Below, one piece after another: positions 53,775-64,000 of a stretch of DNA of 64,000 bases. Each line of letters starts with the position of its first letter. Within the stretch, counting starts at the first letter, position 1. Origin of the DNA: Phycomyces blakesleeanus NRRL 1555(-). Taxonomy: Eukaryota; Mucoromycota; Mucoromycetes; Mucorales; Phycomycetaceae. The stretch lies in assembly GCF_001638985.1 (NCBI RefSeq), contig NW_017265153.1:493776-557775 (forward strand), read 5' to 3'. The position numbers and the translations under genes were made by a program. Below the pieces are notes generated by a model. The model worked only from the letters and a program-made list of their open reading frames with translations. It made no database searches and had not been told where the DNA came from.

Positions 53775-54956
53775 ATGTTGGCTATCAAGAACCAGGCTTT
53801 AAGATCATCGTTTAAGGGCACGGTAAATACAATAGTATAAATAAGTCTAAGAAAACTAAAAGCAACTTTAGTCGTATCGTGCCCTGAGTACCTCTCCCGT
53901 TTCAAAGGTATAATGTACAAAGTGTTCTTTCCTTTCTAAAAAAAATAAAGAGAAAAAAACAACAACAACAAATAAACAATCCTAACATTTTGGGATAATT
54001 TACATAATAGACCGCCAATCCCATTAAATGTGTGGGCGTAATTGGATCTGGCCAGATGGGTTTGGGTATTGCCTATGTTACAGCCAATGTTACCAAGCTG
54101 CCAGTTGTTTTGATGGATATCAATAAAGAACAGACCGAGAAAGGACTTAAATTTATTGGTAAGAGTAAATTAAGTATGCAAATCGAAAATTTCGCTTTTT
54201 GTATCTCACAATATATATATATACACATACATATATATTTAAGACCGATTATTATTAAAGGATGTGGCAAAGCAAAAAATCACTCAGGAGCATGCAGAAG
54301 AGACACGCGCTCGATTTTCTACCACAAACACACTGGAATCTTTGTCAGATGCCGACTTTTTGATTGAGGCAGCATCTGAGAATCTCAACATCAAATCTGC
54401 AATCTTTAGAAATCTCGATACAATTTGTAAACCAGAGGCTATCCTGGCTACAAACACAAGTAGTATTAGCATCACGAAAATCGCTGCCGCTACAAAGCGC
54501 CCTGAGAAGGTTATTGGTATGCATTTCATGAACCCTGTACCAGTCATGAAGCTAGTAGAAATCATTCCCGGACTAGCAACGTGCCCTGAGGTATTGGAGA
54601 CAACACGTACCTTGGCTACTTCTATGGGAAAGACATGCACTGTGGTCAAAGATATTCCTGGCTTTGTGGCCAACCGCCTTTTGATGCCTTATATTAACGA
54701 AGCAGTGATGTTATTGGAATGCGAATTTGCAAGCGCAGAGGATATTGATATTACTATGAAACTGGGTACCAACATGCCTATGGGTCCATTGACACTCGCC
54801 GACTTTATTGGTCTTGATACGTGTCTAGCTATTATGAAAGTGCTTCATGAAAACACTGGAGACTCTAAATACCGGCCCGCAGTATTGCTCCAGAAATATG
54901 TTGATGCTGGCTGGATGGGCAAGAAGTCTGGGCGTGGAATCTACAATTACAAATAA
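53775..54956 (+). CDS. HADH: 3-hydroxyacyl-CoA (3-hydroxybutyryl-CoA) dehydrogenase, mitochondrial
   Basis: Oxidises L-3-hydroxyacyl-CoA to 3-ketoacyl-CoA with NAD+, the third step of mitochondrial beta-oxidation. I build four exons: 53775-53822, 53872-53907, 54011-54158 and 54244-54956, 314 residues. The first two small exons give MLAIKNQALRSSFKGT and SYRALSTSPVSK, a typical basic, Ser-rich mitochondrial presequence. The NAD-binding motif GVIGSGQMGLGIA follows, then ATNTSSISIT, and the catalytic His/Glu pair in GMHFMNPVPVMKLVEI. The C-terminal dimerisation domain ends SGRGIYNYK. Acceptor 54243 was chosen because it restores FIDRLLLKDVAKQ, the conserved reading; the alternative at 54260 breaks frame. 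The first two exons rest on splice phase and plausibility only. Confidence 0.9.
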
Positions 54957-59902: not shown

Positions 59903-61783
59903 AAAACAATACGTACTATTATATTATCGAGTTTTTTAATTAACAAGAAATGAACATCAATTTTTATATTTCACACAAATCACAAAGTTGATACCTAAAA
60001 TCTTCACACCTCTGAAAAATTGGATATTGGTACTTCATTACTTATGATCCAGCGTTCACAAGATATACTCAATAGTGTCCAAGTATTAACTTTAATCAAA
60101 TTACTGTTCTTGGCTTTTAATTTCCTACCAAACTCTCTAAACCCCTTTTTTTCTCAGCCATATTATTGGAGTATTGGCTCCCAGTATTCTTACTATCATA
60201 TATTTGTGAAATAGAGAGAGGTAGTATATGCCAAGTTATCCATGTATTTCTAATGATCTCTCTCTCTTTTTTTAAGCTATAGATAATTTTTTTTCCAAGA
60301 TTGTTACCTTGCAGTGAAAAACACTATACAAGGCGCACAATTGAGTGCTTATGTTATGTAAAAAATGAGAAATCACAAAGGTTCTTTATTTTCATATTTG
60401 GTGAACTGGTTCACAGAATGCTGGACAATGTTGCGGTAGTCTTCATCACTTAAACTACGCCATCCATCCTTGATCCTGGTGAGAATGGTCTCATTGTCTT
60501 TCAAGCTTTTCCTTCTCACTCTGTCCTTCGCCACTTTCCAGAACATCTCGATAGGGTTCAGTTCCGGAGAGTATACCGGAAGGTAAACCGAATTGTATCC
60601 TCTAGAGGAGATATAACGACTGATATCTGCACTCTGGTGGATGGGTGCATTATCCACCACTAGGAAGTTGCCTTTCATATTGGCATACTTGTCAATCTCA
60701 CCAAGGACAGCTTTCACGAACATAAAGAAATGCCCGGTCACTGTACCATTTGAACCGGACTCACCAGAAGAGGACTGCTTGCAGAACTTAGGATTCCTCA
60801 AGCTGACGTAAATAAGGCCTTTGGCCGATATAGCCCCAAGAATGGTAAGAGGGTGGGACCTGGTGGTTGGGGTGGTGGTGACTCCCTTCTTTCCCTTCTC
60901 GGACCATCCTCTTCCGTGCCGCATGTTGATATCGAAGGCAGACTCGTCCAAGAAAACACAGTTGGTCATGTAGTTGGCACTTGTTTTCTTCATCTGCAGA
61001 ATCCAGTTATATCTTGCCTCAATATTCTCCTCACTGTTCTTCGCTACAGGCTGCTTATAGACCTTTTTGAATGTGAGGTTGCATTCGTTGGCCATAAACC
61101 TCCTGACAGTCTCTTTCGACACGTTGATCTCGCCAAACACCGAGACGAGATGGTCCATCACGTCTTTAACGTAGACAGATGCATCTTCGGCAACGAATTC
61201 TTTAATGCACTTCTTGTGCTCGTCGGTCAGTCCTTTTTCCCGCCCTTCTTGCCACGGTTGAACAAGTTTTCCGGGTCTTCATCGTACTTCTTCACCCAAC
61301 GTTGTGCCACTCTGGCGCTTATGTTCAATTGCTTTGCTGCAGCCTTAGCACTAAGCAATTTCTCATCCTTCAGCTTGAAAAACTTGATGATGTCCTCATC
61401 AGTGTAAGTATTACGCTGACGAGTAGTCTTGCTTTTTTTCATTGGGGGATGATTGGACTTCCTGTTTGGTCCTCTGCCTGGTCACTCTAATATGGATATA
61501 TATTTAAATACGCTTTTAATTATCACTTTTTTTTTAAAAAAATAAATAAATAAATACCTCTGAGGCTTTTGAAATTCTATCTCTATTTCTTGATTCAAGA
61601 AATTGGGAATGTGTTGCTATGGTCTCAAGGCCATGACTATCCTCATCAACTATATGACCCAAAGCTTGAGAACCGCCTTTATTAACGCTCTTTCCTTGAC
61701 CGTCTTTATACACGAATTTAACGGAGGAAAATTTTGGTATAGTAAAAACTTAGATAATTGAGAAAGGAGGTACGTATTGTTTT
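59903..61783. mobile_element. Tc1/mariner-like element, candidate limits
   Basis: A perfect 14-bp inverted repeat, AAAACAATACGTAC at 59903-59916 and its complement at 61770-61783, brackets the transposase reading frames. The size (1.88 kb) suits a Tc1-type element. The repeat is AT-rich and short, and no TA duplication is obvious, so these limits are tentative, whereas the transposase itself is certain. Confidence 0.35.
60373..61735 (-). pseudogene. Tc1-like DD34E transposase, frameshifted
   Basis: The catalytic frame (60373 to about 61231) holds all three acidic residues: NCVFLDESAFD, FLVVDNAPIHQ and SPELNPIEMFW, with 34 residues between the second Asp and the Glu (DD34E). The HTH domain (61227-61442, KLLSAKAAAKQLNISARVAQ) is in another frame and meets TGA at 61227; one base lost near 61230 would explain this. 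Farther upstream, 61558-61735 reads PKFSSVKFVYKDGQGKSVNK and so on, and joins across a GT-AG intron (61487-61557) to a frame that stops just before the HTH ATG at 61442, as if one C were lost from a C-run. Otherwise it is well preserved, so inactivation seems recent. It is related to the older relic at 10270-10700. Confidence 0.85.
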
Positions 61784-62434
61784 TTTAAGTAAAAGTAAAG
61801 TTTTATACGGGCAGGTTCTTTTTGTGAAATCCATTCATAAGAGTTAAAGAGTTAATAGTTAGTCACAAGGTATTGTATTAAGTCACATGATATACACTGA
61901 AACTAAGGTTTTTGGTTTTATAGCTTCTTGTTTCCCCTAACATTTTGAAAAAGTCTTTTTATTTCTTAGATGTCCTATATACGAAGGGAACTTGATGTAC
62001 TTGTTACATGATTTTCTACAAGAAAAATAAATTAAGATCTTAAAAGTGAGCCTTACACAAATGTTTTACTGTGTTTATAGGCCTAGTCTTGCTGATTTAA
62101 TGTACATAATGACCCTAAACTTAAAATTTTCATCTTTCTTGTAAATTCCCTAACTGGTTTCTTTTATGCAAATACCTTAGTGTTAAATCTGACGTGAAAT
62201 TCTCATAAGTCTAAGCACTCTCTAAGCAGCTCTATTTATTTAATTTTAAGAAAAAGCAAATTCCCTCTTTTTAAAGCTTTCGTCTGAGGATGAAATAGTC
62301 TTTCGCGTTGGTTTTTAGCTTTGAGGTACAGCTATTTGTGTCGACAAACTCAGTCAAATACCTTTACTCAACTCAATTTAACAAAATTCAATTAGAAACA
62401 GAAATAAATATAAAAATAAGCAAGTGCAGTATAG
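61784..62434. other. Intergenic, PIG-B promoter side
   Basis: AT-rich; no gene recognised. Confidence 0.4.
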
Positions 62435-64000
62435 ATGCGATCTACCAAAATCTTTATAATCTGTGTCATATTTCGACTTGTGAATGCCATATTTACTCGT
62501 ACTTACGACAATCCCGATGAATACTGGCAATCACAAGAAGTAGCTCATCAAATGGTGTTTGGATATCCTTTTTCAAATTGTATATATAAATCATCTATAC
62601 ATTAATCAAATGCAAAATCATACTTCCTTGACGACTTCACACATATGGCTATGTGACCTGGGAGTGGCACGAAAGGATTCGTAGCTATACTCATCCCCTT
62701 GTATTCGCCACACTTTATAAATGTATTCAACTACTTGGCCTAGAAGAGACTGATGCCTTGGTATGTATACAATAAGTATAGATCCATTAATATTAAGAAA
62801 TACAAACTTGAATGTCTTTAAATAACTAAAAAAAATAGATCGTTTCTCCTCGCCTACTACAAGGGTTTTTCTCAGCAGTTGCTGACTATGGAACATATAC
62901 ACTTGCTATTCGCATATTTGGTATCACAATCGAGCCTTATATCGTAAAGTATTATGAGTATTCTCGAGCATTGCTTGCCAAAAAAAAACTTATATTCTTT
63001 TTTTTTGGTAGTTATTTATGACATTATGCTCATGGTACAACTTCTTTATGGCCGGAAGAACTCTTTCAAATTGCATGGAGATGGTTCTTACTATTCTGGC
63101 TCTCAATTATTGGCCACTACAAAATTGCCCAGATCAAAACTGGAGAAAACACCTGAGATTTAGTCTTGGCCTCGCTTCTTTGGCATGCTTGATGCGACCC
63201 ACAAATGGAATCGTGTGGCTTTTTCTTGGTCTCCATTTACTAGCTAATAGACCTCGTTACAGATGGGAAATCGCGTTTGAAGCGGCCACGATTGTGTAAA
63301 TATTATATACATCTTCTACGTTAGCCTTACTTATATACGTGTAATTTTTAGATCAATTGCTGTGATCATAAACACATTGTTGGACACACATATATACACT
63401 GGATCATGGTATAATGTCTTCCACGAACCCGTAATTGCTCCATTGACTTTCTTTCGTTTAAACGTATTGGCTTCAGTATCTCTGTTTTATGGTGTTCATC
63501 CATGGCATTGGTACATATCCCAAGGATTACCAGTGATGACAACCACACTTTTACCACTTGTGGTGTACGGGGTTTGGCGTATACAAAAGTCATTCAATAA
63601 CAACACCAGCATCAGGGCGCTTCCATTTTTAAAGCTTGTACTCTGGGTAGTTAGTGTCTATAGCTTGCTATCTCACAAGGAATTTCGTTTCTTGTTTCCC
63701 ATATTTCCACTTCTACTGATATTTGCAGCATTCGGCTTGGAACAGGTGCCATCCAAAAAATGGCGTAGATGGATAGTAATAGGCTTAGTAGGTACACAAT
63801 TGCCACTGTCTATTTATTTATCGTTATGGCATCAAAGAGGCGTCATGGATACCATGTTGTGGTTACGTCAAGAAGCTCGGAATTCACCTATATCGATACA
63901 TGTATTGATGCCTTGCCACTCCACACCCTATCAATCTATTTTACACTCCAAATCTACCCCCATAAAATTCTTAACATGCGAGCCGCCACTTGTAGGTCAG
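62435..64000 (+). CDS. GPI10: GPI mannosyltransferase 3 (PIG-B/Gpi10), 5' part
   Basis: An ER-membrane GT22-family enzyme that adds the third mannose to GPI precursors. Exons: 62435-62562, 62643-62760, 62839-62943, 63012-63295 and 63352-64000 (still open at the window end). The luminal catalytic motif NPDEYWQSQEVAHQMVFGYG appears when intron 1 is removed, followed by VTWEWHERIRSYTHPLVF. Further family text includes MRPTNGIVWLFLGLHLL, GSWYNVFHEPVIAPLTFF, GVHPWHWYISQGLPVM, HKEFRFLFPIFPLLLIF and LMPCHSTPY. Multiple hydrophobic segments fit a polytopic protein. Intron 1 is not GT-AG: it has AT-AC ends and perfect U12-type signals (see next feature). About 425 residues are visible; the family has about 500-600. 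Confidence 0.93.
62563..62642 (+). other. U12-type AT-AC intron in PIG-B/GPI10
   Basis: The 80-nt intron begins ATATCCTTT, identical to the U12 5' splice-site consensus. It contains TTCCTTGAC at 62624-62632, identical to the branch-site consensus TTCCTTRAY, and ends ...CTTCACAC. The branch A at 62631 is 11 nt from the last intron base, the usual U12 distance. Its removal joins GG to ATATGGC and restores the conserved VFGYGYVTWEW. No AG occurs between 62543 and about 62662, so no GT-AG intron can do this. Confidence 0.88.

Follow-up and report, generated by a model that had tools for sequence, protein, structure and literature searches.

The PIG-B locus and its surroundings

The window, i.e. 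the whole stretch of 64,000 nucleotides analysed here, ends within a gene extending from position 62435 onward, and sequence similarity supports its assignment to PIG-B, the third GPI mannosyltransferase. With the window extended by 249 bases along contig C20, the reconstructed gene gives a spliced protein of 510 residues after removal of one AT-AC intron and three GT-AG introns (78, 68 and 56 nt; Table 1). Residues 6-410 match the Alg9-like mannosyltransferase domain of Pfam (PF03901, Glyco_transf_22; 8.9e-100), and several fungal relatives of the protein carry the name 'GPI mannosyltransferase 3', which bears out the gene identity proposed in a first-pass annotation of the stretch. The best named relative, from Phycomyces nitens (P0002), shares 83% identity with the spliced protein over its full length, followed by Spinellus (59%) and Radiomyces (56%). 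Going by the identity to P. nitens, the genome probably belongs to another Phycomyces species, most likely P. blakesleeanus. When a 401-base stretch was searched against the genome (53.5 Mb in 60 contigs), a single place was matched.

Upstream of PIG-B, a DDE_3-type transposase (2.7e-26), which we take to be Tc1/mariner-like, lies on the minus strand at 60373-61481. It is split over two overlapping frames, an 84-aa helix-turn-helix (HTH) part and a 301-aa catalytic part. One AT-rich pair was the only inverted repeat of at least 14 nt reported around it in a scan of 60000-62000.

Table 1 Predicted features; positions refer to the window unless a contig (C) or locus (L) is given
Feature	Position	Strand	Remarks
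PIG-B exon 1	62435..62562	+	MRSTKIF start, NPDEYWQ motif, ...MVFG end (2 bases of Gly codon); open frame; P. nitens P0002 aligned from residue 1
PIG-B AT-AC U12-type (minor) intron	62563..62642	+	80 nt, phase 2
U12-type 5' splice site ATATCCTTT	62563..62571	+	predicted to pair with the 5' end of U11 and with U6atac from this genome
U12-type branch site TTCCTTGAC	62624..62632	+	branch A = 62631
AC 3' splice site	62641..62642	+	11 nt past branch A
PIG-B exon 2 (YGYVTWEWHERIRSYTHP...)	62643..62760	+	
Ordinary GT-AG intron (GTATGTATAC...AAATAG)	62761..62838	+	78 nt
PIG-B exon 3	62839..62943	+	
Ordinary GT-AG intron	62944..63011	+	68 nt
PIG-B exon 4	63012..63295	+	
Ordinary GT-AG intron	63296..63351	+	56 nt
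PIG-B exon 5	63352..64000	+	continues beyond window; stop ends at 64249, counted from window start, with extension along contig C20
False GT-AG intron of public model P0001	62540-62675	+	one-base slide gives identical protein
Prefoldin 3 intron L081	C18:871805-871874	-	U12-type donor and branch motif, AG 28 nt past branch A
U12 snRNA	L002 1501-1698 = C1:273513-273710	-	41 extra letters in third hairpin of Rfam model
U11 snRNA	L011 1501-1796 = C5:1047381-1047676	-	long CT/AG-rich hairpin expansion, 161 letters vs 2 in model

Splice signals and minor spliceosome components

The putative first intron of PIG-B reads ATATCCTTTTTC...TACTTCCTTGACGACTTCACAC over 80 nt and is free of AG. Its donor ATATCCTTT conforms to the U12-type 5' splice site RTATCCTT, and TTCCTTGAC to the U12-type branch site TTCCTTRAY. 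The last base lies 11 nt from the branch A at 62631, the optimum of this distance in U12-type introns being given as 11-13 nt (PMC3584512). For the donor, eight pairs are predicted with U11 and eight with U6atac. The exons join in phase 2 (GG^A TAT GGC), giving the spliced product MVFGYGYVTWEW, while retention of the intron would shift the frame, since 80 is no multiple of 3, with a stop met 14 codons on. An AT-AC U12-type intron at exactly these coordinates had been proposed in the first-pass annotation, and donor, branch site, spacing and lack of AG were all confirmed. Throughout the genome (both strands, 53.5 Mb), the pattern TATCCTTN{25,55}TTCCTTRAY occurs at 17 places, or about 1.6e-7 per position, compared with 6 in the reversed control. 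The position of the PIG-B site is fixed beforehand by the gap in the protein.

Genome searches with Rfam models returned U6atac (58.1 bits, cut-off 33) and U11 (56.3 bits, cut-off 39). U12 was matched over the full model length with 46 bits (E 1.5e-6), below its cut-off of 53. Its branch-pairing stretch is kept save one base, and the letters of its 3' hairpin are mostly kept (GCCUUCUUUGCGG vs GCCUACUUUGCGG in the Rfam model); by these functional letters, the U12 snRNA is taken as present despite its score. Among 14 control genomes, matches below cut-off were obtained in three for U12, in eight for U6atac and in one for U11. The PDCD7 (U11/U12-59K) domain was found at one place (33.5 bits vs cut-off 27, E 8.2e-7), covering the final 54 positions of a 306-position model, and in none of the 14 control genomes.

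For U4atac, Rfam gave no match in the genome at E up to 1. Allowing one mismatch, the complement of U6atac was found at 20 places, namely U6atac itself, near-identical repeat copies and two others whose downstream letters are unlike U4atac. A stem/loop pattern of U4atac gave two places in the genome, which are unconvincing as judged from the matched letters alone. The snRNA search suggested in the first-pass annotation was successful for U11 and U6atac, gave U12 below cut-off and did not yield U4atac. The same annotation had held that absence of all minor spliceosome components would refute the intron; the genome, however, does contain U11, U6atac, a U12 scoring below cut-off and the 59K domain. 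Besides these, nineteen equal-scoring U6atac-like matches of 93 nt (e.g. L004-L010; 22.3 bits, below cut-off) were observed, which probably form one dispersed repeat family and possibly are U6-like copies.

Judged from the motifs, the frame, the protein continuity described below and these sequences, positions 62563-62642 almost certainly represent a U12-type AT-AC spliceosomal intron in PIG-B. The host would be a mucoralean fungus resembling Phycomyces, and its own genome would encode the minor spliceosome that removes the intron. U11 would be replaced by U6atac at the donor, the A at 62631 would attack the ATATCC end of the intron, and the AC 11 nt downstream would be joined, so that the joined exons give back the conserved N-terminal stretch NPDEYWQ...VFGYGYVTWEW. 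This order of events, as well as splicing of the intron in the cell, is what established knowledge of minor splicing would predict. Alternatively, the AT-AC intron might be taken out by the major (U2) spliceosome, its U12 look being ancestral and out of use. C. elegans offers a precedent, as it has AT-AC introns though seemingly lacking U11, U12 and U4atac, and these introns are taken as probably U2-processed (PMC3033335); the failure of Rfam and two pattern scans to find U4atac points in the same direction. However, the intron has a U12-type donor, branch site and spacing and lacks an internal AG acceptor, sequences of U11, U12, U6atac and 59K are present in the genome, and motifs so strict would be unlikely to persist unused. 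Removal by the major spliceosome is hence considered very improbable.

Protein continuity and gene models

The case for a U12-type intron in PIG-B rests on the continuity of the protein; the signals by themselves are not clearly enriched, since an AT-AC pattern with the first branch base left free gave 17 rows (16 places) compared with 10 in the reversed control, and a GT-AG U12-type pattern gave 2 places compared with 4. Removal of the intron restores VFG/YGYVTWEW. Scoring of 8000 candidates gave 1071 relatives, of which 120 were listed. Of these 120, 24 have no sequence across the junction, and it is uninterrupted in 93 of the 96 that cover it, the three with inserts being P0035, P0041 and P0056. 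The nearby columns (VFG, TWEW) are almost invariant among the listed relatives. The exact intron ends cannot be placed by the protein, because intron and downstream exon both start with ATAT: five sliding placements of the 80-nt gap yield the identical protein, and solely 62563-62642 has recognised ends (AT-AC). Hence, the exact restoration of the PIG-B motif claimed in the first-pass annotation holds for the continuity of the protein, but the protein alone allows five placements.

A scan of alternative joins started from 27,010 donor/acceptor choices, of which 4,766 gave stop-free in-frame joins that were aligned to the P. nitens and Spinellus proteins. The 80-nt gap won with a score of 679, while the best GT/GC-AG join reached 520 and loses conserved residues; none of the GT-AG joins among the choices tested restores the conserved PIG-B stretch. 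These scores bear on a rival reading in which the site falls within an ordinary GT-AG intron and P0001, which is listed as a product of this very stretch and has the standing of a public model, or a similar annotation is correct. P0001 begins at the ATG at 62484 in a frame different from that of PIG-B exon 1, loses the true residues 1-54 and agrees with the spliced PIG-B protein from residue 55 onward only. With such losses and the lower score, an ordinary intron at this site can practically be dismissed. The lack of AG in the interval had been taken to exclude a normal intron from the outset; the interval is indeed AG-free, but a GT-AG intron could end further downstream, as that of P0001 does. 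A GT-AG intron is disfavoured because conserved residues would be lost, and not by the missing AG alone. The expectation that standard gene callers would break the gene proved right, given the wrong-frame start and the false GT-AG intron of P0001. In this way, overlooking an AT-AC intron has deprived a GPI-anchor enzyme of its conserved N-terminus in the public set of proteins. A decayed gene copy or an 80-nt assembly error, which would make splicing unnecessary and to which the frame difference between exons 1 and 2 in the raw sequence might point, is scarcely credible in view of an intact 510-aa spliced protein 83% identical to that of P. nitens, the single genomic place of the 401-base stretch and a complete U12 signal set on the insert.

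In some relatives, gene models are disturbed in a similar way, at this residue or beyond it. Thirteen of the 60 first-listed relatives (P0001 included) start only after residue 44 and one ends before residue 450; late starts can also have causes besides a missed intron. At the junction residue, Y-P is read in P0029, P0032 (Umbelopsis), P0035, P0056 (Rhizophagus) and P0041 (Phlyctochytrium), which would fit translation running into GG^RTATCC. At the level of protein models, this suggests an old intron shared with some relatives at the PIG-B junction position and misread by gene models. In the Rhizophagus models, the Lys after Y-P would disrupt the TT of a standard donor; P0049, also from Rhizophagus and of the same species, is cleanly spliced at the junction, as are many Mucorales PIG-B models. 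The far ends of the P0035 and P0041 inserts disagree with simple full retention.

Further U12-type introns and the U12 snRNA

Minor splicing has been lost repeatedly across the fungal kingdom. In P. blakesleeanus, 9 AT-AC and 8 GT-AG introns of U12 type were reported from ESTs by the Burge method (PMC2846911, Table 2), and about 20 minor introns are cited for Phycomyces (PMC10639083). Minor splicing in Phycomyces, of which the first-pass annotation mentioned reported remnants, is thus already published, and the PIG-B intron adds to a known kind, being like the introns of PMC2846911 in probable genus and motif kind; AT-AC and GT-AG subtypes occur there as well as in the present genome. In the literature searched, supplements lying outside the search, no published link was found between PIGB and U12-type introns, minor introns or the minor spliceosome; the intron may already be listed in the supplement of PMC2846911. 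It makes a clear case of fungal minor splicing that can readily be checked. For Rhizophagus irregularis, 205 predicted minor introns and all four minor snRNAs are given, far more introns than reported for Phycomyces (PMC10639083); its likeness to the present case is a PIG-B model (P0035) disturbed at the same residue. In Lichtheimia and other Mucorales, U12 likewise deviates from the standard in its middle and 3' part, and in Lichtheimia U4atac, too, was undetected (PMC4133162). While the mucoralean U12 described there has an extended stem II and lacks stem III, the Phycomyces U12 instead carries its 41 additional letters in hairpin three of the Rfam model. According to the same source, U4atac is present as a single copy in the other basal fungi, in contrast to the Phycomyces genome, where none was found. 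In Apophysomyces assemblies, U6atac was reported, and neither U12 nor U4atac (PMC5604411).

Within the present genome, a coding test (open joined frame) was run on pattern matches, with those of the reversed control left out. Matches to the TTCCTTRAY pattern with a fitting start base and an open joined frame were the PIG-B intron and candidate L014 only. From the 16 AT-AC places, seven (PIG-B and six others) were taken on after the open-frame check; a pattern fixing A at the first branch base gave 15 places, compared with 7 in the reversed control. For four more U12-type introns, support comes from protein similarity that spans the junction. Among the AT-AC introns, that of DCP2 (contig C27) has its junction after residue 63 within a Pfam match over 13-88 (2.8e-32; solved DCP2 structure 4e-55), and that of Npa1 (C13) after residue 46 within a Pfam match over 10-108 (7.2e-16). 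The CDK5-like one (C25) has its junction after residue 23 in a match to solved CDK5 over 5-51 (3.1e-15), with no Pfam match. The fourth, a GT-AG intron of prefoldin 3 (C18), has its junction after residue 54, spanned by solved prefoldin 3 over 4-68 (2.5e-18) and by Pfam over 3-62 (1.1e-13); its branch-to-AG distance of 28 nt is unusually long.

The intron at L033, the product of which is presumably TRAPPC11-like, is weakly supported, with a Foie-gras_1 match below cut-off (E 0.017) and unconvincing matches to solved structures. The L032 intron is unsupported, having no Pfam or other match, and so is that of L039. The same was found for L077, L082 and L085, which were inspected from the pattern fixing A. 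Open joins also occur at L030, L041 and L043 (one repeat family) and at L037 and L042 with the AT-AC pattern, as well as at L074 with the pattern fixing A. A looser U12-like pattern gave two more matches in the window, at 54745 and 22129 on the minus strand.

In the Rfam alignment, the U12 snRNA has GAGUAAGGAUAAU in place of the family consensus GAGUAAGGAAAAU, an A-to-U change giving GGAU for GGAA. From the pairing register, we take the changed base to face the first base of the branch motif (for U12/branch-site pairing in general, see PMC3584512). This first base is T in PIG-B, A in DCP2, Npa1, CDK5-like, prefoldin 3 and L032, and G in L033. Duplex prediction, in which the branch A was left out to mimic its bulge, gave stronger duplexes with the genome's own U12 than with consensus U12 for six of seven branch sites, and a weaker one for PIG-B. 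Prefoldin 3 is not independent here, because its search pattern fixed A; without it, five of six branch sites fit the U12 change, two of these five belonging to weak or unsupported introns. Possibly, though on balance doubtfully, the minor spliceosome of this lineage has been retuned, with U12 carrying GUAAGGAU for GUAAGGAA, the first base of branch motifs changing from T to A or G in compensation, often to give TTATCCTTRAC, and PIG-B with TTCCTTGAC being a laggard that keeps the older motif. Drawn from a small set of introns in one genome, this is a lead; as far as titles and the beginnings of abstracts tell, none of the papers found on compensatory branch-point change in minor introns and U12 snRNA deals with such a change. 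Should both the altered U12 and the branch sites that match it be borne out, Phycomyces would represent a natural instance in which a minor snRNA has co-evolved with its few introns.
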